From an uncultured Sulfitobacter sp. (GTDB lineage Bacteria; Pseudomonadota; Alphaproteobacteria; Rhodobacterales; Rhodobacteraceae): DNA of 64,000 nucleotides. The number at the start of each line of letters is the position of its first letter. Positions within the stretch are counted from its first letter, which is position 1. A model generated the notes under the pieces. It made no database searches, was not told the DNA's origin, and saw nothing but the letters and a program-made list of their open reading frames with translations. Location: NCBI RefSeq assembly GCF_947497275.1, contig NZ_CANMFS010000001.1, positions 124,001 through 188,000 of the forward strand, given 5' to 3'. This document shows, piece after piece, positions 8,866-38,227 of the stretch. The position numbers and the translations under genes are program-made.

Positions 8866-8952
8866 CCAATCCGACAGAAATCCAAAGTAATTAGCCGCCT
8901 GTTAATGCGACTGGGACATCACTGGGCACCAAGCAGATCGCAAGAGGCAGAC

Positions 8953-13391: not shown

Positions 13392-13579
13392 GGTTCTGTC
13401 TTGCGCATTGGCCACAGATCATGCGTGGGAGCAGGGTGGCGGGGAATAAGAATACAGTGGAATTTCATTATCTTGAGGCAGGGTTCTAATTTTCTCATGC
13501 GTATTGGCAGGAATCTACCGTGGTGACAGCAGGCTGCCTAGAGTGTATTTCTGTATATCGCCTCTCCCGAAGGAAGCCG

Positions 13580-15040: not shown

Positions 15041-15052
15041 GCGGCGGGCGAT

Positions 15053-15071
15053 ATGCCGCGTAATGCGGCAT
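15053..15071 (+). terminator. Hairpin after the Wzy-like gene
   Basis: A perfect inverted repeat, ATGCCGC-gtaat-GCGGCAT, lies 13 bases after the stop. There is no T run after it, so termination is uncertain. A second weaker repeat (GGCCTT ... AAGGCC, 15136-15156) follows before the PKS start. Confidence 0.4.
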
Positions 15072-15300
15072 CACTATTCACTTGATGGCTGTAATTCCGT
15101 TACGTTAGGATGATCCACCGGAAAAGTTCCCCGCTGGCCTTAATCTTGAAAAGGCCAATTGTTGTCACGAAATAAACAGCATTGGCGCGTAGAGCAAAGG
15201 CTGGGCAACCGCATTTGTCCGACAAGTTTGACTGATTTCGATTAAAATGCCGTGGGGGCGCCTGCTTGCACCGCGAAGGCAGGCCGAGGGGTAGAATGAG

Positions 15301-18300
15301 ATGACCAATCACAGCCGCCAAGACGGACCGGCACGTGAAGATATCGCAATTGTCGGAATGGCAGTGAACGTACCCGGGGCGGATACAGTGACGCAATACT
15401 GGCGAAACCTGCGCGACGGCATCTCCTCGATCCGCAAGCTGAGCGAAGAAGAACTGCTGGCCGCAGGGGAAACGCCGCAGAACATCGCGCGCAAGAACTA
15501 TGTGCGGGCCGCGGCTGTTCTTGACGGCTTCGAGACATTCGATGCAGAATTTTTCGGATTCTCCCCAAAGGACGCTGCGATCCTCGATCCGCAACACCGC
15601 AAGTTTCTTGAAGTCGCATGGGAAGCGATGGAACAGGCGGGGCACGTTCCTGAAACCGTTGCCGGACCCGTTGGCGTTTATGCCGGGTGCGGCATGGGCA
15701 GCTATTTCTATTTCAACATCTGCTCGAACCCGGACCTCGTCGACGAAGTGGGCATGTTTTTGCTGCGTCACACCGGCAACGACAAGGATTTCTTGTCGAC
15801 CCGGGTAAGCCATGTGTTCGATCTCAAGGGCCCGTCGATCAACCTGCAAACCGCCTGTTCAACGTCATTGGTTGCGATCCACTATGCCGCTGCCGCTTTG
15901 CGCGCGGGCGAAGTGGATATGGCGCTTGCCGGTGGTGTGACCATCGAATTGCCGCAGGGGCGGGGGTATATCTTCAGGGAAAACGAGATTCTGTCGCCAG
16001 ACGGGGAATGCCACGCCTTCGACCATCGCGCGCAAGGCACGGTCTTTGGATCGGGCGCGGGCTGTGTCGCGCTCAAGCGGTTGTCGGATGCGCAAGCGGA
16101 CGGGGACCACATCTGGGCCGTGATCAAAGGATCCGCAATCAACAACGACGGCGCGGCCAAGGCCGGATACCTCGCGCCATCGGTCGACGGACAGTCGGCA
16201 GCCATTGACAAGGCGCTGGAAGCCTCAGGTGTCCCGGCAGAGCAGATCGAGCTTGTCGAATGCCACGGCACCGGCACTTATCTGGGCGACCCGATCGAGG
16301 TTGCCGCGCTGACCGATGCCTATCGCGCTCAAACCGCGAAAGACGATTTCGCCCGCGTCGGGTCGGTGAAAACGAACATCGGCCATCTCGATACGGCCGC
16401 AGGCGTGGCTGGTCTGGTCAAGGCCAGCCTCGCGCTCCATCACGAGGCGATGCCGCCGTCGTTGGGATACGAGGCACCCAACCCCGCCATCGGGTTCGAC
16501 GGCAGCCCATTTCGGGTGAACGACACGCTGACCGCTTGGCCGCGCGGCACCCGTCCGCGCCATGCCGCCGTGAACGCGCTGGGCGTGGGGGGCACGAATG
16601 CGCATGTGGTCCTTGCCGAGGCGCCTTTGCGCGCGGCGTCCGAGGAAAGCGATTTCCCGTTCCAGCCATTATGCATTTCGGCAAGGTCCAAGGCCGCGCT
16701 CGAGGCGAATACGGCGGCACTTGCGGCGCATCTGCGCACGCATCCGGACCTTGATCTGGCCGATGTCGCACACACGTTGAAGAATGGGCGGCGGGGCTTC
16801 GAACATCGGCGCGTCGTCGTGGCCGAAACTACAACCGAGGCGGCGGATTTACTGGAGGCGAAAGACACCCGCCGGGTTTTCACCCACCAAAGATTGGCTG
16901 ACGCGCCCGGCGTGGTCTTCATGTTTCCGGGCGGCGGCGCGCAGTATCCCGACATGGCGCGCGATCTCTACGAGACCGAGCCGGTCTTTGCCGAGGCGAT
17001 GGATCGCGGGCTTGATCACCTCTCGCAACAGCTTGATTACGATATTCGCGCGCTCTGGTTGCCCAAAGCGCAGGACAGCGCGGCTGCTGCGCAAAGGTTC
17101 AAGACACCTTCCGTCCAGCTGCCGCTGATCGCCATCGTGGAGTATGCGCTGGCGCAGCTGTGGATCGGCTGGGGTGTGAAACCGGCAGCGATGGTCGGCC
17201 ACTCGATGGGCGAGAACGTCGCAGCCTGTCTGGCGGGCGTATTGAGCTTTGAAAGCCTGATTGACCTGGTGCTTCTGCGCGGCCGTCTGTTCGATACCGT
17301 TCCCGCAGGCGGTATGCTCAGCGTACCGCTCTCGCAGGCGGCGATCCGCCCGTATCTTACTGACGATCTGGACATCGCCAGCGTCAACGGCCCCGAATTG
17401 ACGGCGATCTCTGGACCCGTTGCCGCATTGGATGCGCTTGCTGCGCAGCTTGCCGCATCGGATATCGACAGCCATCGGATCGCCATCGACATCGCTGCGC
17501 ACAGCCGCATGTTGGACCCGATCTTGCCGGAATACCGTGCGTTCCTCGCAGGGCTGGACTTGCAGGCACCGAAGATACCGTTCCTGTCCAACCGCACCGG
17601 GGTTGAAATCACGGCGCAACAGGCCACCGATCCGGATTACTGGGTCGGGCAGCTGCGCAATACCGTGAATTTCGCCGATTGCATGGAAACGCTGGCCAGT
17701 GGCGCGCCGCGCGTATTTCTCGAAGTCGGGCCCGGAAAAGCCCTGTCGTCGTTGGCGCAATTGTGCGCGGCGGTAAAGCCCGCGCAGGTGCTCAGCTCAT
17801 TGCGCCATCCCGATCAGGCGCTGCCGGATGATCTGTATTTCATCGGTGTGATGGCGCGTCTGTGGGCCTGCGGAGTCGAGGCGGACTGGCAGCAGGTCTG
17901 GGGCGAGGCCCGGCGCAACCGGGTGATTTTACCGACCTACCAATTTCAGCGTAGCCCGTATTTCATCGAGCCGGGTCGACACACCGCCGAAGCGCCGACC
18001 GCCGCTATCGCGCGGTTGGACGAGATGTCCGACTGGGGCGCGGTGCCAAGCTGGCGGGCGCAGTTCGCGGATGTGGACGCCGATCTGGACGCCGCGCTGG
18101 CGACGGTGCGCGGGCAAAACTGGCTTGTTTTCGCGGATCAGGCTGGCGTCGCCGATGAGGTGATAGCGCGGCTGGAGCGCGCGGGTGCACGGGTCATTAC
18201 CGTACGGGCGGGTGACAGCTTTGCCGATCTGGGGCAGGGGCGCTATACGCTGGCGCCCGAACAGGGGCGCGAGGGGTATGAGGCGTTGATGACGGCGCTC

Positions 18301-21300
18301 AAGTCCGCCGATTGTTTGCCGGACCGCATTGCGCATTTCTGGCTGGTCACCCGGGGTGCGAGCTTTCGCGCGGGCAGCGATGAATTCAGCCGTAACATGG
18401 AGCAGGGCTTCTACAGCTTGCTGTGGCTCGGTCAGGTGTTGGCAGAATTGGAACCTGTCGCGGACCGGCATCTGACGGTGATCACCACCGGTGCCGCGTC
18501 CGTCGCGGCAGAGCCGCTGCCCCATCCCGAGAAAGCGATGATCAGTGGCCCCGCAGGCGTCATGCCGCGCGAAATTCCGGGCGTTACCTGCGCCACGCTT
18601 GACATCGAACTTGCGCCACAGCCCCGGCAGCGCGGGCGGTTTAGGCGCAGCGCGCCGGACGCACCATCGGATATGACCGACCGATTGCTTGAAGACCTGC
18701 TTGCAACCCCGGCCAACACCGTCGCCGCCCTGCGCGGGCCACGACGGCTGGTGCGCGGGCTTCGTACACAGCCGCTGCCCCAGCCGGAGGAACCCGCGTT
18801 CAAGCGGGGCGGTAGATATCTCATTACCGGCGGTTTCGGCGGCATCGGGCAAACCATCGCCGCAGATCTGTTGGCCCGTTACGATGCGCATGTGGTGTTG
18901 CTGAGCCGGACGGCCATCCCCGATCGCACGGCCTGGAAACGTGTCCTCGAGACAGTGCCGGCCAGCGATCCCGTGGCCCGCCGCATCCGCGCGGTCCAAC
19001 GTCTGGAAGCTGCCGGAGGGCGTATCGACGTGCGCACGGCGGATGTCGTCAACGTCGCGCAGATGCGCAGGGTCATAGACGCGCTGGAGACCGAGGGTCG
19101 GATTAACGGCGCCATTCACGCGGCGGGTGCGCTTGACGACGCGCCGCTGTTGGGAAAAACCCAGGCGCAGGTGGACGCGGTTCTGGCGCCCAAGGTAATG
19201 GGACTACGGGTTCTGGATCAGCTTTTGCCGGACGGGCGGGTGGATCTAATGGTGCTTTTCGCCTCGACCTCCACTGCAACGCGGGGCGCGGGGCAGGTCG
19301 ATTATGTGGCTGCCAACGAGTATTTGAATGCCTATGCGCTTGCCCGCAGGGGCGGACAGACGCGGGTTGTCGCGGTCAACTGGGGCGTCTGGGCCGATGT
19401 CGGTATGGCCGCCGAAGCTGTCGGCACCGCAACGGTGGACGTTCTACCGCCACGCCCGATCAAATTGCCGCTACTGGATTGCGTCGCAATGCATGAAGAC
19501 GAGACGCAGTTTCATGGCACGCTGGATGCGCGCAACGATTGGGTGCTGAACCAGCATCGTATGGCCGATGGCACACCGGTCATGCCCGGCACCGGCATCA
19601 TCGAAGCATTCGCCCAAGGCGCACGGGGTGCCGGGATCCACGGGCCGTTCAACCTGCGCGATCTGTATTTCCTGCGGGCCTTGACCATGGACGATACGTC
19701 GGCGCGTCCGATCCGGGTCAGTCTTGTCGCGCAAGACGACGGTTTGACCGCAACGCTGGCAAGCGCGTGCCGTTTCGAAGGACGCGACGGCTGGCAAACC
19801 CATGCAGAGGCCCGCATCGAGCGCGGCACACCGTCGTTGCGTTCAATCGATCTTAAAGAAATTTCTGCACGGCTTGGTTCGGTCGAGGAGGCGGAGGGTA
19901 CGTATCTGCGGATCCCGCAAGAAGCGCATCTGCGCTTCGGCGCGCAGTGGCATGTATTGCGCAGCCGCCAGATCGGCGTGGACGAAGGGCTTGCGCGGCT
20001 GGTCCTTGATGCACCGCTTGAGCAGGGGCAGGTCTTGCATCCGGGGCTCTTGGATCTGGCAACAGGATGGGCCGTCGGTCTTGCCCCCGATTACGATGCG
20101 ACAGACCTCTGGGTTCCGGTATCGTATGGCGCGCTGGAGGTGTATGCACCGCTGCAGCGCGAAATATACAGCCATATGCGCCGTGCGCAGGGGGCAGATG
20201 GCGCGGCGCGGTTCGATGTGACGATATGCGACGTCGAAGGCCGCGTATTGGTCGAAGTCCGTGATTTCGCAATGACGCGGCTGAGGGACGGTTTTTCGGC
20301 ACATACCGCACCGCTGACACCGGCAGAAGTACATTTCGATGCTGACCCCGATGCACCGGCGCGGCCGCTGAGCGAGGCCGAAGAACGTCTGGCCTATCTT
20401 GTTTCGCAGGGTATCGCTGCGGCGCAGGGCCCGCAGGCGCTATCGCGCGCGTTGGGCACCGGCGCGTCGCAGATCTATGTCTCATCGCTGCCCCTTAACG
20501 CGTTGATCGCACAGGCGGACATGCCGCCGCGCAGCCAGGCGCAGGGCCAGAGTTTTGAGCGTACCGATCTGGAAGGCTACACGGCGCCGCGCGGTCCGGT
20601 GGAGCAAAAGCTCGCCGGCATGTGGTCAAAATTGCTAGGCGTTTCACCGGTGGGGGTGGATGACAGTTTCTTCGATCTGGGTGGACACTCCTTGATCGCC
20701 GTGCGCTTGTTCGCGGCGGTAAAACGGGAATTCGGTGTCGAGTTCCCGATCTCTATCCTGTTTGAAGCCCCGACAATCGCCGAATGCGCGGCCCGGATCG
20801 TCGACCGGACGGGCGCGGATGGGACAGGCACGTCCCATGACCCGGCGCCGACACAGCATAGTTTTACCCACCTGGTACCGCTCAACGGCGTTGAGCCGTC
20901 GCGCGCAGCACCGTTGTTCGTGGTCGCGGGTATGTTCGGCAATGTATTGAACCTGCGCCATCTGGCATTGCAATTCGCGCAGGAGCGGGCGGTTTTCGGT
21001 CTTCAGGCGCGCGGCCTTATCGGCGATGCCGCGCCGCATGAAACGATCGAGGAAGCCGCCGCCGATTGTATCGCCGAAATGCGGCAGGTGCAGGCGCACG
21101 GCCCCTACCTGCTGTCCGGTTTTTCAGGCGGGGGGATCACCGCCTACGAGATGGCGCGTCAACTGAAGGAAGCGGGCGAGGAGGTGGCCGTGCTGGCGCT
21201 GCTGGATACGCCTTTGCCGGTGAGACCCGCACTTGGCCGTCGTGACAAGGCGCTGATCAAAATGGCCGAGTTGCAGCGCAAAGGCCCCCGATACCTGCTC

Positions 21301-21711
21301 GAATGGGGTCGTGACCGCCTTGCGTGGGAGCGTTCCAAGCGCGCGATCAAGGCGGCAGCGCCAGTCGAGGCGCAGTTCAACAATACCAAGATCGAAGCGG
21401 CGTTTCTGCGTGCGGTCAGCCGCTACCAAACGCCGGATTGGCAGGGGCAGATGATCCTGCTGCGGCCCGCATTGGACCGTCAATATAAGGTCAGTGATGG
21501 CAACTGGATCAGTGCCGCGCGCGAATATGTCTTTGCCGACAATGACTGGACCCGCTTTGCGCCCCATGTGCGGGTGATCGAGGTGCCCGGCGATCACGAC
21601 AGCATGGTGCTGTCACCGAATGTTGTCGTGCTGGCCGCCGAGCTGCGCGAAGCGATTGCGGACGCCTTGGTGCAAGAAGATACCGCGCCGCAAGCGACGG
21701 CGGCAGAGTAA
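15301..21711 (+). CDS. Single-module type I polyketide synthase, KS-AT-KR-DH-ACP-TE
   Basis: A 2136-residue multidomain enzyme with a GAGGGG site upstream. Ketosynthase at about 14-440 has active Cys in LQTACSTSLVAIHYA, and HGTGTYLGDPIEV and VKTNIGHLDTAAG. Acyltransferase at about 540-850 (FPGGGAQYPDMA, GHSMGENVAA). Ketoreductase structural plus catalytic parts at about 900-1380 (YLITGGFGGIGQ, FASTST, VDYVAANEYLNAYA). Double-hotdog dehydratase at about 1400-1670 (HRMADGTPVMPGTG, LHPGLLDLATG). Carrier with LGGHSLIAVRLF, Ser near 1796. Thioesterase at about 1870-2120 with GFSGGG. No enoylreductase or methyltransferase is seen. It would extend an acyl unit once, reduce and dehydrate it, then release or transfer it. 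The KS probably accepts a starter from the downstream NRPS carrier protein. Confidence 0.93.
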   Translation: MTNHSRQDGPAREDIAIVGMAVNVPGADTVTQYWRNLRDGISSIRKLSEEELLAAGETPQNIARKNYVRAAAVLDGFETFDAEFFGFSPKDAAILDPQHRKFLEVAWEAMEQAGHVPETVAGPVGVYAGCGMGSYFYFNICSNPDLVDEVGMFLLRHTGNDKDFLSTRVSHVFDLKGPSINLQTACSTSLVAIHYAAAALRAGEVDMALAGGVTIELPQGRGYIFRENEILSPDGECHAFDHRAQGTVFGSGAGCVALKRLSDAQADGDHIWAVIKGSAINNDGAAKAGYLAPSVDGQSAAIDKALEASGVPAEQIELVECHGTGTYLGDPIEVAALTDAYRAQTAKDDFARVGSVKTNIGHLDTAAGVAGLVKASLALHHEAMPPSLGYEAPNPAIGFDGSPFRVNDTLTAWPRGTRPRHAAVNALGVGGTNAHVVLAEAPLRAASEESDFPFQPLCISARSKAALEANTAALAAHLRTHPDLDLADVAHTLKNGRRGFEHRRVVVAETTTEAADLLEAKDTRRVFTHQRLADAPGVVFMFPGGGAQYPDMARDLYETEPVFAEAMDRGLDHLSQQLDYDIRALWLPKAQDSAAAAQRFKTPSVQLPLIAIVEYALAQLWIGWGVKPAAMVGHSMGENVAACLAGVLSFESLIDLVLLRGRLFDTVPAGGMLSVPLSQAAIRPYLTDDLDIASVNGPELTAISGPVAALDALAAQLAASDIDSHRIAIDIAAHSRMLDPILPEYRAFLAGLDLQAPKIPFLSNRTGVEITAQQATDPDYWVGQLRNTVNFADCMETLASGAPRVFLEVGPGKALSSLAQLCAAVKPAQVLSSLRHPDQALPDDLYFIGVMARLWACGVEADWQQVWGEARRNRVILPTYQFQRSPYFIEPGRHTAEAPTAAIARLDEMSDWGAVPSWRAQFADVDADLDAALATVRGQNWLVFADQAGVADEVIARLERAGARVITVRAGDSFADLGQGRYTLAPEQGREGYEALMTALKSADCLPDRIAHFWLVTRGASFRAGSDEFSRNMEQGFYSLLWLGQVLAELEPVADRHLTVITTGAASVAAEPLPHPEKAMISGPAGVMPREIPGVTCATLDIELAPQPRQRGRFRRSAPDAPSDMTDRLLEDLLATPANTVAALRGPRRLVRGLRTQPLPQPEEPAFKRGGRYLITGGFGGIGQTIAADLLARYDAHVVLLSRTAIPDRTAWKRVLETVPASDPVARRIRAVQRLEAAGGRIDVRTADVVNVAQMRRVIDALETEGRINGAIHAAGALDDAPLLGKTQAQVDAVLAPKVMGLRVLDQLLPDGRVDLMVLFASTSTATRGAGQVDYVAANEYLNAYALARRGGQTRVVAVNWGVWADVGMAAEAVGTATVDVLPPRPIKLPLLDCVAMHEDETQFHGTLDARNDWVLNQHRMADGTPVMPGTGIIEAFAQGARGAGIHGPFNLRDLYFLRALTMDDTSARPIRVSLVAQDDGLTATLASACRFEGRDGWQTHAEARIERGTPSLRSIDLKEISARLGSVEEAEGTYLRIPQEAHLRFGAQWHVLRSRQIGVDEGLARLVLDAPLEQGQVLHPGLLDLATGWAVGLAPDYDATDLWVPVSYGALEVYAPLQREIYSHMRRAQGADGAARFDVTICDVEGRVLVEVRDFAMTRLRDGFSAHTAPLTPAEVHFDADPDAPARPLSEAEERLAYLVSQGIAAAQGPQALSRALGTGASQIYVSSLPLNALIAQADMPPRSQAQGQSFERTDLEGYTAPRGPVEQKLAGMWSKLLGVSPVGVDDSFFDLGGHSLIAVRLFAAVKREFGVEFPISILFEAPTIAECAARIVDRTGADGTGTSHDPAPTQHSFTHLVPLNGVEPSRAAPLFVVAGMFGNVLNLRHLALQFAQERAVFGLQARGLIGDAAPHETIEEAAADCIAEMRQVQAHGPYLLSGFSGGGITAYEMARQLKEAGEEVAVLALLDTPLPVRPALGRRDKALIKMAELQRKGPRYLLEWGRDRLAWERSKRAIKAAAPVEAQFNNTKIEAAFLRAVSRYQTPDWQGQMILLRPALDRQYKVSDGNWISAAREYVFADNDWTRFAPHVRVIEVPGDHDSMVLSPNVVVLAAELREAIADALVQEDTAPQATAAE

Positions 21712-21716
21712 GCACG

Positions 21717-22691
21717 ATGGCGCGGCCCACACTCCTCTGTGTCCTGTTGAACTACCGCACGCCGGAGATGACGCTGCGCGCGGCCACGGCGGCTTTGGCC
21801 GACCTTGACGCGATGGGCGGTGAGCTGGTGATCGTGGACAATGCGTCGGGCGACGGATCAGAAGATATGTTGCGCCGCGAGGTCGACGTGCGGGGCTGGC
21901 ACGAAGGTGGACGCGTCCGCGTGATCGGCTCGCCAGTCAATGGCGGCTTTGGTGCAGGCAACAACATCGGCATACGGGCCATGCTGAGCGATGGCGGGGC
22001 ACCCGACTATGTCTACATCCTGAATTCCGATGCATTCCCGGACGCAGGGTCCATTCGTGCGCTGATCGACCATCTGGAGGCGACGCCGGACGCCGGCATC
22101 GCCTGTTCGCATGTGCGTGGAGAGGACGGGCAAACCCACACGACGGCCTTCCGCTTTCCGTCTATCGCGGGCGAATTCGAAGGAGCCGCCCGTCTGGGCG
22201 CGGTTTCACGGTTGTTGTCGCATGCTCGGGTTGTGCTGCCGCAGCCGGGCATCACCCAACAGGTGGATTGGAGCGCCGGCGCCAGCATGATGCTGCGTCG
22301 ATCGATGCTGGATGATATCGGCATCTTCGACGAGACTTTCTTTCTGTATTTCGAGGAGACGGACCTGTGTCTGCGGGCCGCGCGGGCGGGGTGGTGGTGT
22401 TGGTACGTGCCGCAAAGCCGTGTCGTACACATCGGATCCGTTTCGACCGGTATGAAAACCAAATCACGCATGCCGCAGTACTGGTACGATTCCCGCCGCC
22501 ACTATTTTATCAAGAATTACGGGCGTGTTTATGCTGCTTGCGCGCTGCTCGCCCATGTTGGGGGGGGGCTGCTGCACCGTTTGCGCATGGGGCTTGCGGG
22601 ACGCAAACCGCAGGATCCGCAGTGGTTTCTCAGCGACATGATGAGCCACGCCATCACCAGATACCGCCTGTCCCGGGAGGACCGACCATGA
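21717..22691 (+). CDS. Family 2 glycosyltransferase between PKS and NRPS
   Basis: A 324-residue rhamnosyltransferase-like GT2: LLNYRTPEMTLRAATAAL, LVIVDNASGDGSEDMLRR, NGGFGAGNNIGIRAM and YILNSDAFPDAGS (DxD-like), then DETFFLYFEETDLCLRAARA as the acceptor motif. It starts five bases after the PKS stop and overlaps the NRPS start by ATGA, so it is made together with both. This placement suggests it glycosylates the PKS/NRPS product or an intermediate of the polysaccharide carrying it. The enzyme class is certain; the acceptor is inference. Confidence 0.9.
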   Translation: MARPTLLCVLLNYRTPEMTLRAATAALADLDAMGGELVIVDNASGDGSEDMLRREVDVRGWHEGGRVRVIGSPVNGGFGAGNNIGIRAMLSDGGAPDYVYILNSDAFPDAGSIRALIDHLEATPDAGIACSHVRGEDGQTHTTAFRFPSIAGEFEGAARLGAVSRLLSHARVVLPQPGITQQVDWSAGASMMLRRSMLDDIGIFDETFFLYFEETDLCLRAARAGWWCWYVPQSRVVHIGSVSTGMKTKSRMPQYWYDSRRHYFIKNYGRVYAACALLAHVGGGLLHRLRMGLAGRKPQDPQWFLSDMMSHAITRYRLSREDRP

Positions 22692-25600
22692 CCGCACCGT
22701 TCAACCCATCCGCGTTTTCCTGTGTGATCCTCGGCGACCAGTCGCTGACGATTGCCTGCGCGGACATCATCCACGCTGGCGGACACAGGATCAGGGCGGT
22801 GGTGAGTGATGATGCGGATGTCGCGGCGTGGGCGCAGGCGCACGGCATCACGGTTTTCCACCGTGCCAACGATCTGTATGCTGCGGACCTGGGTCCATTC
22901 GACTGGCTTCTGAGCATTGCAAACCTGCGCATCTTGCCGGACGCTGTTCTGGCGCTCCCGGTCAAAGGCGCGGTGAATTTTCACGACGGCCCCCTGCCGC
23001 GCTATGCCGGGTTGAACACGCCTGCTTGGGCGGTGATCAACCGCGAGGTACGCCACGGAGTCAGCTGGCATCTGCTCGAAGGCGGAGTGGACGAAGGCGA
23101 TCTGTTGGCGCAGCAAATCATCGACATCGCCGATGATGAGACCGCCTTCAGCCTCAATTCAAAATGCTATGCAGCGGGTATGGAAAGCTTTGTGCGGGTG
23201 ATGGCGCAGCTGGAAAGCAGTACGCTGGCGCGGCAGCCGCAGGATTTGCGCGAGCGCAGCTATTTCGCCAAGGACCAACGCCCTACTGCTTTGGGTTTGC
23301 TGGATTTTGGTCAACCGACGGCTGATCTGCTCGCCTTGGTGCGCGGGCTGGATTTTGGTGGCTACTGGAACCCATTCGGTATTTCAAAGATCGCCCTTGC
23401 CGACGTTGTTTTTCTGGTCAAGCGGGCTGTGGCGGCGGTGGGACACGGGGTGGCCGGCACGGTGCTGGAAGCGGACGGGGATCGGCTGCTGGTCGCTACG
23501 GCGGACGGCGCCGTATCGCTGGAGGGGGTCGAGGCGCTGGGCGAAGGGGTGGCGTTGCCGGATGTCGGTGCGGTTTTGCTGCCGCCGGGGCCCCGTCATG
23601 CGGCCGCACAAACCTCTTTGGTCGCGGACGAGGCGCATTGGCGCCGGGCGCTGGCGCGTGCCGATGCGCTTGACTTGCCCCTCGCGCGGGGCCGCGTGAC
23701 GGGCGAGTGGATCGTGCGGACGGTTCCGGTTCCGACCGGCGTAACCGCTCCGGAAGCACGCGAGGCGGTTGCGGCGTTTCTGCGGCAAAGCGTGGGCAGA
23801 GCGGGCAGCGTCGGTCATGCCGTCACACCGGTGCTGCGCGGGTTTGCAGGCGATTGGGTGCCGCTGGATATCGGCGCCCCGATTAAGCCGCAGATGGCTC
23901 GAATCGGCGCAACAGGCGGCTTCGCGACGGATCTTGCCATGCGGGATCCGGCCCTTGCAGCGAACCGCCCGTCGATCATGGTCGGCGATGCGCCGGTTGC
24001 CGGCGCCGCGCTGACCGTGGTACTCGGCCATGGCGAAATCACACTGCACGCAGATGCGGGGGTGCTTTCGGTGGCGGCGCTTGATCTGCTCGCAGCGCGG
24101 CTTGCGCACGCTTTGCAGGGGAATACCGGCTTGCCGGAGATCGAGCGCAAGCTTCTGACCAACGACTGGAACGCCACGCAGACAGATTATGCCGCAGTAC
24201 CGATCCACGAGAGCTTTGAAGCGCAGGTGGCGCGCACACCCGACGCCACCGCGCTGGTTTTTGAGGATCAAAGCCTTACATTCGCGCAACTCAATGTAGC
24301 CGCGAACCGGCTGGCACATGCGTTGATCGCGCAAGGCGTGACCGTGGGCACACCCGTTGGCCTGTCGACGGGGCGTAACCCGGATCTGTTGATCGGGGCG
24401 CTGGGCATCCTCAAGGCGGGCGGGGCCTATGTACCGCTTGATCCAGCGTATCCCGCCGATCGTATCCGGCACTATATTACCGACAGCGGCGCGCCGGTTA
24501 TCGTGACGCAAAAGGCTCTCGCGCAGGGACTGCCGAATGGCGAGGCGAAGCTGGTGCTGCTCGACGATGGTACTCTTGACGGTTTTGCCGACACCAACCC
24601 GGCGGCGGGGGCGGGCGCGGATACGCTTGCTTACCTGATCTACACGTCCGGATCGACGGGCACGCCCAAGGGCGTAATGGTGGCGCACGGGAATGTCGCC
24701 AATTTCTTTGCGGGCATGGATGCGCGGATCGAACATGTGCAAGGCGATGCCTGGCTCGCCGTGACGAGCCTGTCATTCGATATCTCCGTGCTTGAACTGT
24801 TCTGGACCTTGTCGCGCGGTTTGAAGCTGGTACTGGCGGGCGACGACAGCCGCACGGAACTGTCGCGCGGGCCAATCGGGATTTCGGATCGCAAGATCGA
24901 TTTCAGCCTTTTCTACTGGGGCAATGATGACGGTATCGGGCGCGAAAAATACCGGCTGCTGCTCGACGGCGCCCGGTTTGCGGATGCTAACGGATTCAAC
25001 GCGGTCTGGACGCCGGAACGGCATTTTCACGCATTTGGCGGCCCATATCCCAACCCGTCGGTGACCGGTGCCGCCGTTGCGGCCGTCACGCAGAACCTCG
25101 CGGTACGGGCGGGATCGTGTGTCGCACCCCTACACCACCCCGCGCGGATCGCGGAGGAATGGGCGGTGATCGACAATCTGACCAATGGGCGCGTTGGCCT
25201 CGCCATCGCCAGCGGCTGGCAGCCCGATGACTTTGTTCTGCGCCCCGAAAACACGCCCCCCGACAACAAACCCGCAATGTATTCCGCCATCAAACAGCTA
25301 CGCAGCCTCTGGCGCGGCGATGCGGTGGACTTTGCCACGAAAGAAGGCACTCCGTTCCCCGTCGTCACCCAGCCACGCCCGGTGTCGACCGAATTGCCGA
25401 TCTGGGTCACGACCGCAGGCAACCCCGAGACATGGAAAGAAGCTGGTGAGATCGGCGCAAACGTGCTGACCCATCTGCTGGGCCAATCGGTTGCGGAAGT
25501 CGGCGACAAGATCAAGATCTACCACGCCGCCCTGCGCGGGGCGGGGCATGATCCGGCGAATTTCAAGGTGACGGTCATGCTGCACGCCTATCTGGCGGAT

Positions 25601-27166
25601 ACCCGTGCGCAGGCGGAGGAAGTCGCACGCGCCCCGATGAAGGACTATCTGCGCTCTGCGGCCGGACTGATCAAGCAATATGCCTGGGCCTTTCCCGCAT
25701 TCAAGAAGCCGAAGGGCGTGACCAACCCGTTTCACGTGGACCTTGCCGGACTTGATTCCGAAGAAATGGAAGCGATCCTCGAATTTGCATTCCAGCGGTA
25801 TTTCAACGACAGCGGACTGTTTGGTACGGTCGAGGATGGCATTGCGCGGACCGAAGAGCTGAAACGCATCGGGGTGGACGAAGTCGCCTGTCTGATCGAT
25901 TACGGCATCGACGTGGATACAGTGCTGGAAGGGTTGAAGCGACTTGCCGACGTCCTGGCGCGCGCCAATGCAGGGAGCGCCCTTGAAGCCGACGATTTCT
26001 CGCTGGCCGCGCAAATGGTGCGCCACAAGGTCAGTCATCTGCAATGCACACCCTCGATGGCGCAGATGATCGTCATGGATGACACCGCACGACACGCGCT
26101 TGGCGGGCTGAAAGAGCTCATGGTCGGCGGTGAAGCCTTGCCCGGTGCGTTGGCAACGGATTTGATGCGGGCGACATCCGCACGGCTTCAGAACATGTAC
26201 GGTCCGACGGAAACGACGATCTGGTCCACAACGCATGAAATGACGCAGGCCGAGAGTACCGCAGCTATCGGTACGCCCATCGCCAATACGCAGGCGTACG
26301 TTCTGGACGAGCGCCTCTCTCAGGTCGCTGCGGGTGTTCCGGGTGAGCTGTATATCGCTGGCGACGGGGTAACGCAGGGGTACTGGAACCGCGCGGCGAT
26401 GACTGCGGAACGGTTTGTCGACAATCCGTTCGGTGCGGGAAAGATGTACCGCACCGGTGATCTGGCAGCATGGCGCGAAGATGGCATCCTCGGCTTCATC
26501 GGGCGCGCCGACGATCAGGTAAAGATCCGTGGCCACCGGATCGAATTGGGTGAGATCGAAAACGCGCTGACCGCTGTTGCCGGGATCACGCAGGCGGTCG
26601 TGATCGCCCGTGAGGCGCCGGGCGGCACACAATTGGTCGGCTACGTAACGGGCAAGCTGGACGATGAGGAGGCGCTGCGCCGCGTACTTGCAACGCGACT
26701 TCCCGGTATCATGATACCTGCGCGCATCGTTGAAATAGCCCGGATGCCGTTGACACCGAATAAGAAAATAGACCGCAAAGCCTTGCCCGTGCCTGCATCA
26801 CCGGTCACTGCCAGCGCCCCGCTGGCACCCGCCGACGACATGCAAGAGGCCATCGCCGCAGTCTGGCGTACGGTCCTGGGTGTCACGCAGGTGCAGCCGA
26901 CGGATAGTTTTTTTGCGCTGGGTGGTCATTCGCTGCTGGCGGTGCAGGCCCACCGCGACATCAGGGCTGCGCTCGACACGGACCGGCTCAGTATCACCGA
27001 CATCTTCCGCTATCCCACGCTGGAGGCATTGGCGGCACACCTTCAGCAGGCGGGGAAACCCACGCCGGAGGAACCGACCGGTGCACAGCAGGAAACGCCG
27101 GTGAAATCGGAGACTATGTCAAAGCGGCGTGCGATGCGGGCAGGTAGGACCAGGGCCGGCACGTGA
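22688..27166 (+). CDS. NRPS-like protein: formyltransferase, C-like remnant, adenylation with embedded luciferase-like monooxygenase, PCP
   Basis: 1492 residues from the ATG with a GGGAGGA site. Residues 1-310 form a formyltransferase with N/H/D catalytic residues in VNFHDGPLPRYAGLN and GGVDEGDLLAQQI. Residues about 320-500 look like the end of a truncated condensation domain. Adenylation starts near 505 (TYTSG-type loop at YLIYTSGSTGTPKGVMVAHG, FDISVLELF). It is interrupted at about 738-1095 by a MupA/Atu3671-type luciferase-like flavin monooxygenase (FSLFYWGNDD, WTPERHFHAFGGPYPNPSV, GLAIASGWQPDDF). It resumes with NMYGPTETTIWST, YRTGDLAAW and KIDRKALP. A carrier follows with LGGHSLLAVQAH, Ser near 1413. 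There is no thioesterase, so the next step must occur elsewhere, probably on the PKS. Confidence 0.9.
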   Translation: MTAPFNPSAFSCVILGDQSLTIACADIIHAGGHRIRAVVSDDADVAAWAQAHGITVFHRANDLYAADLGPFDWLLSIANLRILPDAVLALPVKGAVNFHDGPLPRYAGLNTPAWAVINREVRHGVSWHLLEGGVDEGDLLAQQIIDIADDETAFSLNSKCYAAGMESFVRVMAQLESSTLARQPQDLRERSYFAKDQRPTALGLLDFGQPTADLLALVRGLDFGGYWNPFGISKIALADVVFLVKRAVAAVGHGVAGTVLEADGDRLLVATADGAVSLEGVEALGEGVALPDVGAVLLPPGPRHAAAQTSLVADEAHWRRALARADALDLPLARGRVTGEWIVRTVPVPTGVTAPEAREAVAAFLRQSVGRAGSVGHAVTPVLRGFAGDWVPLDIGAPIKPQMARIGATGGFATDLAMRDPALAANRPSIMVGDAPVAGAALTVVLGHGEITLHADAGVLSVAALDLLAARLAHALQGNTGLPEIERKLLTNDWNATQTDYAAVPIHESFEAQVARTPDATALVFEDQSLTFAQLNVAANRLAHALIAQGVTVGTPVGLSTGRNPDLLIGALGILKAGGAYVPLDPAYPADRIRHYITDSGAPVIVTQKALAQGLPNGEAKLVLLDDGTLDGFADTNPAAGAGADTLAYLIYTSGSTGTPKGVMVAHGNVANFFAGMDARIEHVQGDAWLAVTSLSFDISVLELFWTLSRGLKLVLAGDDSRTELSRGPIGISDRKIDFSLFYWGNDDGIGREKYRLLLDGARFADANGFNAVWTPERHFHAFGGPYPNPSVTGAAVAAVTQNLAVRAGSCVAPLHHPARIAEEWAVIDNLTNGRVGLAIASGWQPDDFVLRPENTPPDNKPAMYSAIKQLRSLWRGDAVDFATKEGTPFPVVTQPRPVSTELPIWVTTAGNPETWKEAGEIGANVLTHLLGQSVAEVGDKIKIYHAALRGAGHDPANFKVTVMLHAYLADTRAQAEEVARAPMKDYLRSAAGLIKQYAWAFPAFKKPKGVTNPFHVDLAGLDSEEMEAILEFAFQRYFNDSGLFGTVEDGIARTEELKRIGVDEVACLIDYGIDVDTVLEGLKRLADVLARANAGSALEADDFSLAAQMVRHKVSHLQCTPSMAQMIVMDDTARHALGGLKELMVGGEALPGALATDLMRATSARLQNMYGPTETTIWSTTHEMTQAESTAAIGTPIANTQAYVLDERLSQVAAGVPGELYIAGDGVTQGYWNRAAMTAERFVDNPFGAGKMYRTGDLAAWREDGILGFIGRADDQVKIRGHRIELGEIENALTAVAGITQAVVIAREAPGGTQLVGYVTGKLDDEEALRRVLATRLPGIMIPARIVEIARMPLTPNKKIDRKALPVPASPVTASAPLAPADDMQEAIAAVWRTVLGVTQVQPTDSFFALGGHSLLAVQAHRDIRAALDTDRLSITDIFRYPTLEALAAHLQQAGKPTPEEPTGAQQETPVKSETMSKRRAMRAGRTRAGT

Positions 27167-27864
27167 CGGCGCAGATCGACCTCATCGCGGATCTTACGCG
27201 CTCGGTGCTGCCGCTGGGTCTTGGCGTTGCGGCGCGCGATCCCCGACTGATGCCCGATCATGTGCACGCGTCCGAAGCGGCTCTCGTGGGCCGGGCGGTG
27301 CCAAAGCGGCAAGCGGAGTTTCATTCCGGCCGGGCAGCGGCGCGGGCGGCAATGGCGACACTCGGGCTGCCGCCCGCGCCGGTGCTGGCCGGGGCTGACC
27401 GTGCCCCGATCTGGCCCGAAGGACTCTTGGGGAGCATCTCACACACCGCAACGGCATGTGTCGCGACCGTCGGGCTTTGCACCGACTGGGCCGGCATCGG
27501 TGTGGACATCGAAGATGACGCGTCGCTGCCTGATGATCTTGTTGAGGAAATCTGCACCTGCCCAGAGCGCGACTGGCTTTCCAGCCTTCCCCATGCAGAG
27601 CAAGGCGTGATGGCGAAGCTCATTTTTTCCGCTAAGGAAGCGGCCTACAAGGCGCAGTATCCGATGAGCGGCGCCTTGTTCGGCTTCGACAGGCTGTGGG
27701 TAAAAATTGACCGCCGCCGGGCCCGGTTTGATGCACATTTCGTCGACCCACCACCGCCATTTCACCGCATGGAAAGTCTTGCCGGCGCATACGTCCATGC
27801 GGCGGGAATCCTTGTCACCGGCGTGGCAGTTGGGCAGTCTGAGGCAAAGCGGTTTGCGGGCTGA
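27163..27864 (+). CDS. 4'-phosphopantetheinyl transferase (EntD/Sfp type)
   Basis: 233 residues from the GTG overlapping the NRPS stop (GTGA). Family motifs are present: FHSGRAAARAAMATLG, GLLGSISHTATACVATVG, GIGVDIED (Mg-binding Asp/Glu) and FSAKEAAYKAQYP. It transfers the phosphopantetheine arm from CoA to the carrier-protein serines of the PKS and NRPS. A dedicated activator encoded inside the cluster supports the idea that the megasynthases are functional. Confidence 0.93.
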   Translation: MTAQIDLIADLTRSVLPLGLGVAARDPRLMPDHVHASEAALVGRAVPKRQAEFHSGRAAARAAMATLGLPPAPVLAGADRAPIWPEGLLGSISHTATACVATVGLCTDWAGIGVDIEDDASLPDDLVEEICTCPERDWLSSLPHAEQGVMAKLIFSAKEAAYKAQYPMSGALFGFDRLWVKIDRRRARFDAHFVDPPPPFHRMESLAGAYVHAAGILVTGVAVGQSEAKRFAG

Positions 27865-27868
27865 ACAG

Positions 27869-28831
27869 GTGACAGGCAAGACATACACTAGACGCGGCAT
27901 GGCGCGGGTCGCGGCGGGGGCCGTAATAGGTGTGGGAGTGGCATTGGCACTGCGTGCGGGGATGCGTCGCGCGCGCGAGACGCAGGCGCGCGCGCTCTAC
28001 ACCGCCCCGCTTGATCCGCCCCCGGGGGCGTTGAACGTGTTTCATCTGGGTCACTCTCTGGTCGGGCGCGACATGCCTGCCATGCTGGCGCAGCTTGCAC
28101 CTGCGGGGCACAGCTATGCCAGCCAATTAGGCTGGGGCGCGAGCTTGCGGGCGCACTGGCATCCGGACGTGCCGGTCGGCGGCTTCGACATCGAGAACGA
28201 TCATCCGCGTTTCGTCCCGGCGCGCGAAGCGTTGACTTCGGGGACGTTCAGCGCGGTGGTACTGACCGAAATGGTCGAACTGCGCGATGCACTGACCTAT
28301 CACGACAGCGCGCAATATCTCGCAAATTGGGCGCGGCTGGTCCGCGCAGGCGGTCCCGATGCCAAGCTGTATCTCTATGAGACATGGCATCATACGGATG
28401 ATCCTGCCGGTTGGCTTGACCGCATAGATGCCGATTACGAGGCGCTTTGGCTGCGGCAACTCGCCTTGCCTGCTGTCGCGGAACTGGGAACGCCGATCCA
28501 TCTGATCCCGGCGGGGCAGGTGTTGGCGGCGTTTGTGCGGGCGCTGGACGAGGCGGACGGCATCGGCAACGTCGATACCGGATCCGATCTGTTTGCGCGC
28601 ACGCCTGAAGGCGCTGTGGATACGATCCATCTGGGTGATCTGGGGGCCTATCTGGTCGCGCTGACCCACTATGCGGCCCTGTACCACCGGGACCCTGCCG
28701 GTCTGCCGCGAAGGTTGCTGCGGGCGGATGGCAGGCCGGCGCAGGCGCCTGATGCGCAGGCGGGCGCCGCGATGCAACGGATCGCCTGGAATGTCGTGCG
28801 GCGCACCCCGTTCAGCGGGGTCGCGGCATGA
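27869..28831 (+). CDS. SGNH-hydrolase-like protein with N-terminal membrane anchor
   Basis: 320 residues if started at the GTG five bases after the PPTase stop; an ATG at 27899 is an alternative and neither has a clear site. A hydrophobic stretch in the first 35 residues suggests a signal anchor. VFHLGHSLVGRDMP matches block I of SGNH hydrolases with Ser in GHSL, and DTIHLGDLGAYLV supplies the Asp-His pair of the catalytic end. It resembles the N-terminal half of the next protein, so the two are tandem paralogues. It may add or remove an ester group on the polysaccharide or lipid. The fold is probable; the substrate is unknown. Confidence 0.72.
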   Translation: MTGKTYTRRGMARVAAGAVIGVGVALALRAGMRRARETQARALYTAPLDPPPGALNVFHLGHSLVGRDMPAMLAQLAPAGHSYASQLGWGASLRAHWHPDVPVGGFDIENDHPRFVPAREALTSGTFSAVVLTEMVELRDALTYHDSAQYLANWARLVRAGGPDAKLYLYETWHHTDDPAGWLDRIDADYEALWLRQLALPAVAELGTPIHLIPAGQVLAAFVRALDEADGIGNVDTGSDLFARTPEGAVDTIHLGDLGAYLVALTHYAALYHRDPAGLPRRLLRADGRPAQAPDAQAGAAMQRIAWNVVRRTPFSGVAA

Positions 28832-31347
28832 GCGATCTTGCAAGCGCCCTCTTTTCGGTCGTCATGGTAGGTCACAGCCTGTTCGGGCAAACCAGTCCGG
28901 ACATGCTGCAAAATGCGTTGCAGGCGACAAGTCCGGGCGCACGCGTAGAGGCGCAGATTATCAACGGTGCGCCCCTCCAATACAATTGGGACAATTCGGA
29001 CAACGCTGAAGGGATCGACGCGCGTATGGTCTTGCCGCAGGGCACCACGACCGATCTGGTCCTGACCGAAGCGATCCCGCTGGCCAACCACCTGAAATGG
29101 AGTGACACGGGCGTTTACGCTGAGGCCTTCGCGGGCCTTGCGCTTGCCGCCAACCCCGATGTGCGCGTTTTCGTGCAGGAAACCTGGCACAGTCTGAATA
29201 GCGGGACGGGCGTGGCGATTGCCCATGACGCAAAATCCGATGTGGCTTGGCGCACGCGGATTCGTGACGATTTAGCGGCATGGGAGAACATCGTAGCGCT
29301 GCTGCGCGAAGGGCATCCCGATACCGCCAGCCAGATCGGCCTCATTCCCGCCGGACAGGCTTTGGCGCGGCTCGATGATGCTATTGCCGAGGGGACCGTG
29401 CCGGGCCTTGCGGGTATCGCGGAGGTGTTCGATGACGATATCCATCTGAACGCGCGCGGGCATTACTTTGTTTCCATGGTGCAATACGCGGTGTTAACCG
29501 GGAAGGACCCCACAGGATTGCCGCACGAGCTGACCGATCGTTATGGCACCCACATCGATGTTGTGAATGCGGCGATGGCGGCGGGTTTGCAGCGCGTCGC
29601 GCGCAATGCAGTCGATGCGTACCAGGGTGGTCAGTTCACGGCGGCACCCGCCGAAACCGCGCCGCCCGCGCCCATCGGCAGCCGCGCGCCGCCGGTCATC
29701 CCTGCTGTACGGACGACTGCACAGCCATCGGCAACAAGTGCTGGGATTCCCATGGCGGTGGGGCTGGCACCGGTAACGGACTGGAGCGCGCAACAGCCGT
29801 TTCTAGATGTAATGAAAACGGCGCGTCCGTGGCTGGGCCATTTGCCCGGAAGGTTCGGTGGTATCGAATACGATGCACTTGTCAGTGGTGGTTTCATCGA
29901 CGCCGACGGCTGGGTGACAGGATTGCCGCGCGAGGCCGGGTCTGTCGGTACGTTGATCCTGACGGACCAGCCCGAAGCTGCGGTATCGCTGGCGGGGCGC
30001 TATGTGTTGCGTTTCGAGGGATCGGGGGTGGTGGAGCCATTGGGGCGCGCGTCCAACATCCGTTACGGGCGGGGCGAGGTTCGCTTTGACTATACACCGG
30101 GTCCGGGCAGCGTCGAAATCCGCATCCAGCGTAGTTCGGCGTCGGATCCGGTCCGTCACATCAGCGTGGTGCACGAGGACCGACTGGCGATGTGGCAGAA
30201 TGGGGAAATTTTCAATCCCGACTGGCTGCGCCGGTTGGAACCGTTCGGGACACTTCGGTTTATGGATTGGATGGAGACCAACAACTCAGACGTGCAGAAG
30301 TGGGAGGGGAGCCCGAGGGTAAACGACGCAAGCTGGGCGCATCATGGTGTGCCGCTGGAAGTGATGTTGAAGCTTGCTAACACCCTTGGGGTGAATGCAT
30401 GGTTCAACATGCCCCATCTGGCCGATGACGCCTATGTCCGCGCCTTCGCCGCACAAGTGCATGACGGGTTGGATCCTGACGCACAGGCTTTTGTCGAGTA
30501 TTCCAACGAGGTTTGGAATTTTCAGTTTGCCCAGACCCGCTGGGCCGATTCGCAAGCGCAGGCGCGCTGGGGAAAGAAGGACGTCGGCACACAGTTCTAT
30601 GCGCTGCGGGCGTCACAGATCGCTCGGCTGTGGTCGATGGAATACGGGGATCACGAAGACCGGCTGGTCAATGTGATCTCAAGCCAGACCGGCTGGCTCG
30701 GACTTGAAAAGGACATCCTGAATGCGCCGCTGGTGGTGGCCGAAGGCGCGCCTGCACCCGTCGAGGCGTTCGACGCCTACGCGGTGACGGGCTATTTCGG
30801 CGGTATCCTCGGGCTGGAGGCGCGCCGGGACATGGTCCACGGCTGGCTCGACGAAAGCCTCGCGCAGGCAACCGAAACAGCGACGGCGCAGGGACTGACC
30901 GGCGACGCGCGCCAACAGGCGATCGAGTCGTCAAAGTATGACTACGCCACCGCCGTCGCCGCGCAGGAACTGACGGACGGCTCGGTGTCGGGTCAGCAGG
31001 CGGATACCGTGTTGGATCTGGGCAGCCGCGTGTGGCCGTATCACGCGGCGGTGGCGGCTAGGGCGGGCCTGGATCTGATCATGTACGAAGGTGGCACGCA
31101 TGTGGTGGGCATCGGCGCGCAGGTCGATGATGACCGATTGACCGCGTTTTTCCACCATCTGAACTATACGCCGCAAATGGGCGCGCTGTACGAGGCTCTG
31201 TTCGCGGAGTGGCGCGCGGCGGGGGGCGGCATGTTCAACGCTTATGCGGACGTCTATGTGCCGACGAAATGGGGCAGCTGGGGCGCTTTGCGGCACCTCG
31301 ACGATGACAATCCGCGCTGGGACGCGTTGGTGAAAGCGGCGCGATGA
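28828..31347 (+). CDS. SGNH-like domain fused to glycoside-hydrolase-like (clan GH-A type) domain
   Basis: 839 residues, overlapping the upstream paralogue by ATGA. Residues 1-260 repeat the SGNH pattern (VVMVGHSLFGQTSPDM, VRVFVQETWHS, DDDIHLNARGHYFVS). A Pro/Ala-rich linker (about 270-305) leads to about 530 residues with a clan GH-A look: VNAWFNMPHLADDAYVRAFA, VEYSNEVWNF with the NE acid/base signature, and LIMYEGGTHVVG as candidate nucleophile region. No signal peptide is evident. It might trim or transfer glycan chains during assembly. The two-domain architecture is clear; the glycosidase activity is inferred from motifs. Confidence 0.72.
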   Translation: MSDLASALFSVVMVGHSLFGQTSPDMLQNALQATSPGARVEAQIINGAPLQYNWDNSDNAEGIDARMVLPQGTTTDLVLTEAIPLANHLKWSDTGVYAEAFAGLALAANPDVRVFVQETWHSLNSGTGVAIAHDAKSDVAWRTRIRDDLAAWENIVALLREGHPDTASQIGLIPAGQALARLDDAIAEGTVPGLAGIAEVFDDDIHLNARGHYFVSMVQYAVLTGKDPTGLPHELTDRYGTHIDVVNAAMAAGLQRVARNAVDAYQGGQFTAAPAETAPPAPIGSRAPPVIPAVRTTAQPSATSAGIPMAVGLAPVTDWSAQQPFLDVMKTARPWLGHLPGRFGGIEYDALVSGGFIDADGWVTGLPREAGSVGTLILTDQPEAAVSLAGRYVLRFEGSGVVEPLGRASNIRYGRGEVRFDYTPGPGSVEIRIQRSSASDPVRHISVVHEDRLAMWQNGEIFNPDWLRRLEPFGTLRFMDWMETNNSDVQKWEGSPRVNDASWAHHGVPLEVMLKLANTLGVNAWFNMPHLADDAYVRAFAAQVHDGLDPDAQAFVEYSNEVWNFQFAQTRWADSQAQARWGKKDVGTQFYALRASQIARLWSMEYGDHEDRLVNVISSQTGWLGLEKDILNAPLVVAEGAPAPVEAFDAYAVTGYFGGILGLEARRDMVHGWLDESLAQATETATAQGLTGDARQQAIESSKYDYATAVAAQELTDGSVSGQQADTVLDLGSRVWPYHAAVAARAGLDLIMYEGGTHVVGIGAQVDDDRLTAFFHHLNYTPQMGALYEALFAEWRAAGGGMFNAYADVYVPTKWGSWGALRHLDDDNPRWDALVKAAR

Positions 31348-32180
31348 CCGTTGATCTGAGTGTCCTGATCCCCGCCCATGACGAGAGCGACTATATTGCG
31401 CAGTGCCTCGATGCGCTGTTGGGCAGTGACCCGTCGGGTGCTGCGGTCGAAGTGATCGTTATGGCCAACGGGTGCAGCGATGCAACCGCCGATATCGCAC
31501 GTGCGCACGCAGCACGTTTCGAGCGCAGGGGCTGGCCGCTGACGGTGCTCGATTTGCCTGAAGGTGACAAGATGAAGGCGCTTAACGCCGGGGATGCGGC
31601 GGCGTGCCACGGCGCAAGGGTGTATGTGGATGCGGATGTGGTCGTTGGCGCAGAGCTTTTAGCGCAACTGGCAGATGTGTTGGATGCAGATACACCACGC
31701 TACGCCAGCGGCAGCCCGATCGTGACGACGGACGCAAGCGCGTTCACCCGTGTCTACGCGCGGTTCTGGGCGAGCCTGCCGTTTTGCACGCACGGCGTGC
31801 CCGGATTTGGCGTGTTCGCCGTGAACGCGCAGGGTCGCAAACGGTGGGGACCCTTTCCCAACATCATCTCCGACGACACTTTCGTGCGGCTCAGCTTTCT
31901 ACCCAAGGAACGCTTTCGAGTGCCCGCGACCTATCGCTGGCCGATGATCGAGGGGTTCGGACCACTGGTTCGGGTGCGCCGACGCCAGGATATCGGGGTT
32001 GCGGAAGTAAGATCGCTCTATCCGGAACGCTGGGCGAACCACGATCCCACCCCGCCAGAGGCGCGCACCCTTGTGGGTTACGCCCTCCGGGACCCGGTGG
32101 GTTTCGTCGCCTTTGCCGCAGTCGGCGTGTCGGTGCGATTGCCGCACCGCGCGCAGCCCCGGTGGGCGCGCGGACGCTAG
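31344..32180 (+). CDS. Family 2 glycosyltransferase
   Basis: 278 residues starting at an ATG that overlaps the preceding stop. It opens with LSVLIPAHDESDYIAQCLDA, followed by VIVMANGCSDATADIARAH and YVDADVVVGAELLAQL (DxD). It is the last gene of the seven-gene unit that starts with the PKS. It probably adds one sugar of the polysaccharide or of the PKS/NRPS-derived decoration. Its end meets the convergent GT1 gene. Confidence 0.87.
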   Translation: MTVDLSVLIPAHDESDYIAQCLDALLGSDPSGAAVEVIVMANGCSDATADIARAHAARFERRGWPLTVLDLPEGDKMKALNAGDAAACHGARVYVDADVVVGAELLAQLADVLDADTPRYASGSPIVTTDASAFTRVYARFWASLPFCTHGVPGFGVFAVNAQGRKRWGPFPNIISDDTFVRLSFLPKERFRVPATYRWPMIEGFGPLVRVRRRQDIGVAEVRSLYPERWANHDPTPPEARTLVGYALRDPVGFVAFAAVGVSVRLPHRAQPRWARGR

Positions 32181-36135: not shown

Positions 36136-36285
36136 TCTGTTCCTGTCCCTTGTCATGCCGTCCGGCCGTTGGCGTGGCATCATGCCGAAATGCCGTTGAA
36201 CCGGTACCGGACGCTGTTATCGGGGAATCTTGGCTATAGTATGACAGCCCCTATCGGAAGCAAAGCGATGCCGGAAGGGTTTGGT

Positions 36286-38069: not shown

Positions 38070-38203
38070 GGTCCAAACCCCCCCAGGGTTCATACTCTCA
38101 AATGGCAAGGCACACGGCAGACTATATATTGCCGTTTTTTGTGCAGTCTGTTCGGCGGACGGATCGAGTGGCAGCATCGACGCATCTTTTCGGTCGTCAT
38201 CGG

Positions 38204-38227
38204 CATAGAGCCGTTACCGGCTCTATG
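38204..38227. promoter_or_regulatory. Perfect 10-bp inverted repeat upstream of the sugar transferase gene
   Basis: CATAGAGCCG-ttac-CGGCTCTATG, ten matching pairs with a four-base loop, lies 135 bases upstream of the ExoY-type start. No T run follows on either strand. It could be an operator for the EPS genes or an RNA hairpin in their leader. From 38228 to about 38866 I see no gene; the stretch is richer in A/T than its neighbours and probably holds the EPS promoter. Confidence 0.5.

Follow-up and report, generated by a model that had tools for sequence, protein, structure and literature searches.

Seven coupled genes with a polyketide synthase and a formyltransferase-bearing loading module lie within a Wzx/Wzy-type exopolysaccharide locus of an uncultured Sulfitobacter

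We analyzed a 64,000-nt window from an uncultured Sulfitobacter sp. (contig NZ_CANMFS010000001.1, positions 124,001 to 188,000), in which seven genes on the same strand (+, window positions 15301–32180) are joined by 4-base overlaps or 4–5-base gaps within a Wzx/Wzy-type exopolysaccharide locus. Domains were assigned by Pfam and NCBIfam profile searches. The unit begins with a single-module type I polyketide synthase (PKS; 15301..21711) and continues, after a 5-base gap, with a GT2 glycosyltransferase (21717..22691; PF00535), whose gene shares a 4-base ATGA overlap with that of a loading module resembling a nonribosomal peptide synthetase (NRPS-like; 22688..27166; identified by Pfam/NCBIfam, alignment and a structural model). 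Another 4-base overlap leads to an Sfp/EntD-type 4'-phosphopantetheinyl transferase (PPTase; 27163..27864; PF17837 and PF01648), and a 4-base gap to the GTG start at 27869 of an SGNH-type protein (27869..28831), for which ATG 27899 is an alternative start. Overlaps of 4 bases each then join this gene to one encoding an SGNH domain with a C-terminal glycosidase-like barrel (SGNH_GH; 28828..31347), and the latter to a second GT2 glycosyltransferase (31344..32180; PF00535), the last gene of the coupled unit. These boundaries and junctions confirm the original prediction of seven coupled same-strand genes inside an exopolysaccharide locus.

The PKS comprises ketosynthase (KS, aa 13–390), acyltransferase (AT, 539–817), ketoreductase (KR, 941–1366), dehydratase (DH, 1391–1663), acyl carrier protein (ACP, 1769–1833) and thioesterase (TE, from 1871) domains. 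A PKS with a TE had been predicted and was found, with the domain order amended, as the DH is placed after the KR; a thioesterase was found only in the PKS and none in the NRPS-like protein, also as predicted. The active-site residues of all six domains are kept across 29 aligned PKS sequences, and the sole exceptions are gaps in one sequence (L138), which is recorded with a split reading frame. Most of the aligned sequences show an LDD-like motif in the KR, and the AT carries the motif IAAHS instead of HAFH.

The second assembly-line protein, predicted as an NRPS, is one loading module and not a peptide-making NRPS. Its carrier protein (aa 1388–1452) is as predicted, but no condensation domain was detected in the protein and PF00668 has no match in the whole genome, while the same search matched 4 of 14 control genomes. 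A peptide-making NRPS is ruled out by this absence from both protein and genome, since no peptide bond could be formed here by condensation. Instead, the carrier is preceded by a formyltransferase domain (~aa 7–298), an unnamed folded domain (~300–500) and an adenylation (A) domain that is split by an embedded luciferase-like monooxygenase (LLM, aa 739–1089), so that the AMP-binding match falls into two parts. The LLM insertion lies between the A4 (aa 696–705) and A5 (aa 1167–1181) motifs and belongs to the MupA/Atu3671 family (TIGR04020, 469.6 bits against a cut-off of 244.45). The formyltransferase domain (PF00551) keeps its N-x-H and D catalytic residues in 38 of 39 aligned proteins, the sole exception being a Nostoc protein (L141) without this domain, and in a predicted structure of aa 1–504 (mean pLDDT 93.7) residues 7–298 match Fmt/ArnA formyltransferases. 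All 39 proteins share the A-domain code D-I-L-Q-x-G-M-[IV]-W, which is close to the glycine code and points to a glycine-type specificity; in the protein of the window, the tenth position is Lys1360. As in LgrA-type formylating initiation modules, no condensation domain lies upstream of the A domain. This architecture suggests that the loading module formylates the loaded amino acid, and by analogy with known glycine modules the LLM may hydroxylate the glycine alpha carbon.

Two further parts of the loading module stand apart from these assignments. The ~200 residues at aa 300–500 are confidently modelled; their sequence profile hit no PDB chain at E 10, the sole Pfam match among 27 members was judged to be chance, and fold searches that barely covered the region gave no assignment; a condensation-type C-lobe is no more than our guess. 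The last ~15 residues, after the carrier, form a basic tail (like ETMSKRRAMRA), a crude pattern for which occurs in 31 of the 39 aligned sequences; it may serve as a helix that docks to the PKS.

The PPTase is one of two genes of the ACPS family in the genome. Neither SGNH-type protein has a family match in Pfam or NCBIfam. The first was recognized from a GHS motif found by eye and carries an N-terminal hydrophobic anchor segment; it is related to the N-terminal domain of the SGNH-glycosidase. The model of the latter resembles SGNH esterases (DUF4886, PatB) and weakly GH10-type barrels, in line with weak Foldseek matches to a GH10-like fold. Unlike its anchored partner, the SGNH-glycosidase shows no signal peptide or anchor, and in the relatives inspected the start is close to the SGNH motif as well.

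Conservation was analyzed in a family sample of 295 genomes, 109 of which encode the NRPS-like protein (E 1e-100). Searches for the PKS and for sugar transferases covered the first 80 of these 109 genomes in table order. A PKS was found in all 80, on the same contig in 74, and in 71 of the 74 within 1.5 kb of the NRPS-like gene, mostly at ~1,050 bases, which is the length of the GT2 gene. We also named the genes around the best 80 of at least 556 matches, 68 of them untruncated; since these loci were chosen as best matches, close relatives are over-represented. Among the 80 named loci, we found the PKS in 79, the GT2 gene in 79, the PPTase in 77, SGNH in 72, SGNH_GH in 68 and the second GT2 gene in 65, together with GT1 in 65, a Wzy-like protein in 63, Wzx in 60 and WecG in 59. 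All seven genes occur in order in 61 of the 80 loci (55 of the 68 untruncated), and 44 of the 68 untruncated loci additionally contain WecG, Wzy, GT1 and Wzx. With start codons picked mechanically, a 4-base start/stop overlap is present at the GT2-NRPS (68/79), NRPS-PPTase (60/77), SGNH-SGNH_GH (62/66) and SGNH_GH-GT2 (58/63) junctions, at PKS-GT2 in 40/78 and at PPTase-SGNH in 18/72, and at the junction between Wzy and the PKS in 0/62. The tight junctions within the unit are more than chance.

The unit is rare outside the family. At class level, a match to the formyltransferase region (E 1e-60) was found in 9 of 337 genomes, five of them from the same family; the four from other families are found in different NRPS/PKS contexts, or on short contigs that have no core polysaccharide label beyond a weak Wzz match. 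A search of plasmids gave 452 records at 1e-50, four of which have a single place covering 80% of the query. Among nine plasmid regions inspected, six annotated ones are polysaccharide loci and two are not, and in the unannotated region of the Rhizobium BG6 plasmid we found matches to Wzx, WecG and the PPTase, together with a PKS that is divided between two frames. Plasmids of Aliiroseovarius (L140) and Nostoc (L141) carry a related loading module outside polysaccharide loci, with differing PKS/NRPS parts. In the former (Aliiroseovarius sp. M344 plasmid, 13435–27174), a large NRPS/PKS gene adjoins that of the formyltransferase-A-LLM-carrier module, and genes for nitrous-oxide reductase are close by.

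The link of the seven-gene unit to polysaccharide genes is well supported. In 40 genomes picked by hand from the 80, we searched 20-kb flanks for seven core families (sugar transferase, Wzx, WecG, Wzz, CpsD, Wza and Wzy), using second-round profiles that were partly built from these same flanks: at least two families are present in 38 genomes and at least four in 34, and none in G185 and G217. No core family was found in 20 control stretches, two of which have only GT4 or Rml matches. A sugar transferase lies within 20 kb in at least 37 of the 80 genomes, compared to ~1.7 expected; among the matches listed, 21 of the 40 flank-test genomes have none within 30 kb. A Wzy-like protein (E 1e-10) is encoded in 112 of the 295 genomes, and its presence follows that of the NRPS-like protein (both 101, NRPS-like only 8, Wzy-like only 11, neither 175; phi 0.86). 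Where both occur, they lie within 30 kb in 74 genomes, further apart on the same contig in 6 and on different contigs in 21, some of the latter due to fragmented assemblies. Moreover, 63 of the 68 untruncated named loci have a homologue of Wzy, Wzx, WecG, Wzz, CpsD or ExoY within ~10 kb, and the genomes of the remaining five all carry a Wzy-like homologue, four at ~12–25 kb and one on another contig. Of nine odd genomes examined further, eight have a Wzy-like homologue. The conserved co-occurrence in relatives that had been proposed as a check was found, in fixed gene order and in the Wzy-like profile, and the proposed counter-case of a free-standing cluster in relatives was not borne out, with G217 as an exception.

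As a control, H-NOX presence is hardly associated with the NRPS-like protein (both 89, NRPS-like only 20, H-NOX only 131, neither 55; phi 0.12), and H-NOX/GGDEF genes as part of the module are therefore unsupported. In the window, genes for an H-NOX protein and, after it, a GGDEF protein (diguanylate cyclase) adjoin the polysaccharide locus (8905–10580).

On the left of the unit, the locus starts with two GT2-type glycosyltransferase genes (10654–11715 and 11712–12644, + strand; PF13704, PF00535) and a WecG/TagA/CpsF glycosyltransferase (12645..13415, − strand; PF03808 and TIGR00696, both over cut-off). These three genes (10654–13415) had been missed earlier. Next to the PKS lies a putative Wzy-like polymerase (13520..15040, + strand) with ~9 hydrophobic segments, which has no Pfam match even at E 5; a homologue (L033) matches Wzy_C at 1.1e-4, below cut-off. 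On the right follow a convergent GT1/GT4-type glycosyltransferase (32177..33403, − strand; PF00534), a Wzx-type flippase (33494..34837, + strand; PF13440, over cut-off, and PF01943), a Wzz-like chain-length protein with two hydrophobic segments (34840..36183, − strand; TIGR03007 at 72 bits, below cut-off), a CpsD/autokinase-like protein (36286..37287, − strand; TIGR03018 below cut-off, and alignment) and an ExoY/WbaP-type initiating sugar-phosphate transferase (37323..38177, − strand; PF02397 over cut-off). The P-loop Lys of the autokinase-like protein is replaced by Asn; among 40 homologues, 25 have Lys and 15 have Ala, Thr, Ser or Asn. None of the three matches to PF02563 (Wza) in the genome falls inside the window, the nearest being ~11 kb past its right end. 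The ExoY-type gene is separated from an HlyD/ABC exporter operon by a region (38178–39430) that has no likely gene and belongs to the 2-kb bin with the lowest GC content in the window (0.54).

We favour, with some reserve, the interpretation that a Wzx/Wzy-dependent exopolysaccharide carries a formyl-amino-acyl/polyketide substituent, which the seven genes produce and attach. It is based on the domain content, the catalytic residues, the conserved order, the co-occurrence with the Wzy-like protein and the lack of a condensation domain in the genome, and the fixed order inside genes for a secreted polymer makes decoration of the polymer more likely than a free drug-like molecule. The starter chemistry, the number of extensions, and the attachment of the product to sugar with its attachment point are what we infer from these observations. 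The original prediction of a flow from an NRPS carrier to the KS and TE, with a product linked to a sugar polymer, is supported in its main idea by gene order, the Wzy profile and the lack of a condensation domain, the attachment to sugar being the conjectural part; its "tailored acyl unit" had overlooked the starter chemistry of formyl transfer, glycine and LLM oxygenation.

In the proposed pathway, the PPTase would charge both carrier proteins and the A domain would load glycine onto the peptidyl carrier protein of the loading module. The formyltransferase domain would N-formylate the glycine using formyl-folate, and hydroxylation of the alpha carbon by the LLM would give an N-formyl-alpha-hydroxyglycyl thioester or, alternatively, after loss of the carbinolamide, a glyoxyl thioester as in myxothiazol. 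As the genome gave no match to a condensation domain, the KS is expected to accept the loaded starter; the PKS would add one malonyl-type unit, which the KR would reduce and the DH dehydrate, yielding a short enoyl unit such as 4-formamido-4-hydroxybut-2-enoyl-ACP. The TE could pass the acyl unit to water or directly to a sugar. The glycosyltransferases would build the lipid-linked repeat, Wzx would flip it and the Wzy-like protein would polymerize it, and the SGNH proteins may move, trim or remove the acyl group. In its most far-reaching form, which we regard as speculative, more than a third of the sampled Rhodobacteraceae-type genomes would make an exopolysaccharide with a polyketide-extended N-formyl-alpha-hydroxyglycyl (or derived aldehyde or enoyl) group in its repeat unit, and the PKS line would be an obligate part of Wzx/Wzy synthesis.

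Several observations weigh against a polysaccharide substituent. SGNH, SGNH_GH and the second GT2 gene are missing in 8, 12 and 15 of the 80 named loci, partly at truncated contigs. The 8 genomes with only the NRPS-like and the 11 with only the Wzy-like protein break the profile, and the Fisher p of 1e-55 over the 295 genomes overstates the association, as species are not independent. G217 has the module, no polysaccharide families in its 20-kb flanks and no Wzy-like protein, and related loading modules serve unrelated NRPS/PKS clusters (L140, L141). Wzy and Wzz were assigned from weak family matches, the AT specificity is ambiguous from the IAAHS motif, and the PKS could act iteratively. Lastly, an SGNH-glycosidase without a visible signal peptide fits poorly with periplasmic trimming.

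Among the alternatives, we give most room to a diffusible, perhaps glycosylated, small molecule, although it is improbable; its genes would share the locus with those for exopolysaccharide through surface-attached life and co-regulation. Earlier authors classed the core genes as a secondary-metabolite cluster in the relevant passages (PMC5014874, PMC4062626), the intact TE triad would allow free release, and elsewhere a similar loading module serves assembly lines that stand alone. This explanation is difficult to reconcile with the near-obligate co-occurrence with a Wzy-like protein even when the genes are unlinked, with the glycosyltransferase gene between the PKS and NRPS-like genes in 79 of the 80 named loci, and with the lack of a drug exporter or regulator within the seven-gene block.

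We consider it more doubtful still that the product forms the lipid or acyl moiety of a glycolipid from this locus, instead of substituting the polymer along its length. The lack of an enoylreductase domain makes saturated chains unlikely, a glycine starter with formylation would be odd for a lipid, and the locus has a full set of initiating transferase, flippase and polymerase-like protein; in its favour, the PKS matches the lipid-type NCBIfam models Pks2, Pks13 and PfaA, all below cut-off, and may act iteratively. Very improbable, finally, is an iron-binding or pigment molecule kept non-covalently in the polymer matrix: with an LLM acting on nitrogen, a formylated and oxygenated amino acid could in principle serve as a metal ligand, but an LLM between A4 and A5 of glycine modules is reported as an alpha-carbon hydroxylase in the passages concerned (PMC10204066), and no siderophore transporter is among the genes identified in or beside the block.

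If the seven genes do decorate the polysaccharide, bacteria would have a way of placing non-sugar groups, some of them perhaps reactive, on their surface polymers, and such a substituent could cross-link or anchor the polymer. The cluster spans a large, mostly marine family and, in the literature passages at hand, has been discussed as an orphan secondary-metabolite cluster; were it part of polysaccharide synthesis, its product would have to be sought in the polymer and not in culture extracts.

A PKS/glycosyl transferase/NRPS/PPTase cluster conserved among roseobacters, its product described as unidentified, is reported in the relevant passage of PMC5014874, citing Martens et al. 2007, and has the same gene set as our locus. 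The strain of that study, Leisingera sp. JC1, is among our named loci (L169), with PKS-GT2-NRPS-PPTase-SGNH-SGNH_GH. The passage treats the genes as a secondary-metabolite cluster and mentions neither the formyltransferase, glycine and LLM chemistry nor a polysaccharide locus; likewise, the literature passages on the cluster contain no link to exopolysaccharide, and neither a product nor a mutant came to light. Passages of other papers describe a PKS (Inhi_1972) and an NRPS (Inhi_1974) in Phaeobacter inhibens (PMC4062626), probably the same pair as here, and uncharacterized NRPS-like LLM genes in two roseobacters (PMC9769649).

The glycine modules of myxothiazol MtaG and melithiazol MelG, as outlined in part of the solanimycin paper (PMC10204066), share with our protein a glycine-type A domain with a flavin monooxygenase inserted between A4 and A5; in those modules, alpha-hydroxylation of glycine is described. 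According to the same passage, they are terminal modules with condensation and thioesterase domains, in contrast to the loading module described here, which has a formyltransferase and no condensation domain. A formyltransferase ahead of the A domain and carrier is shared with linear gramicidin LgrA (F-A-T), whose structures (5es5–5es9, 6mfy, 6mfz) are matched by our module in sequence and fold. Compared to LgrA, our module has a longer ArnA/Fmt-type formyltransferase (to ~aa 298), an extra ~200-aa domain, the LLM insertion and a handover to a PKS. The Dlt system differs in that it involves no polyketide extension, no formylation and another type of envelope; yet in the D-alanylation of teichoic acids it puts a carrier-activated amino acid on a surface polymer, as we propose for the seven genes described here.

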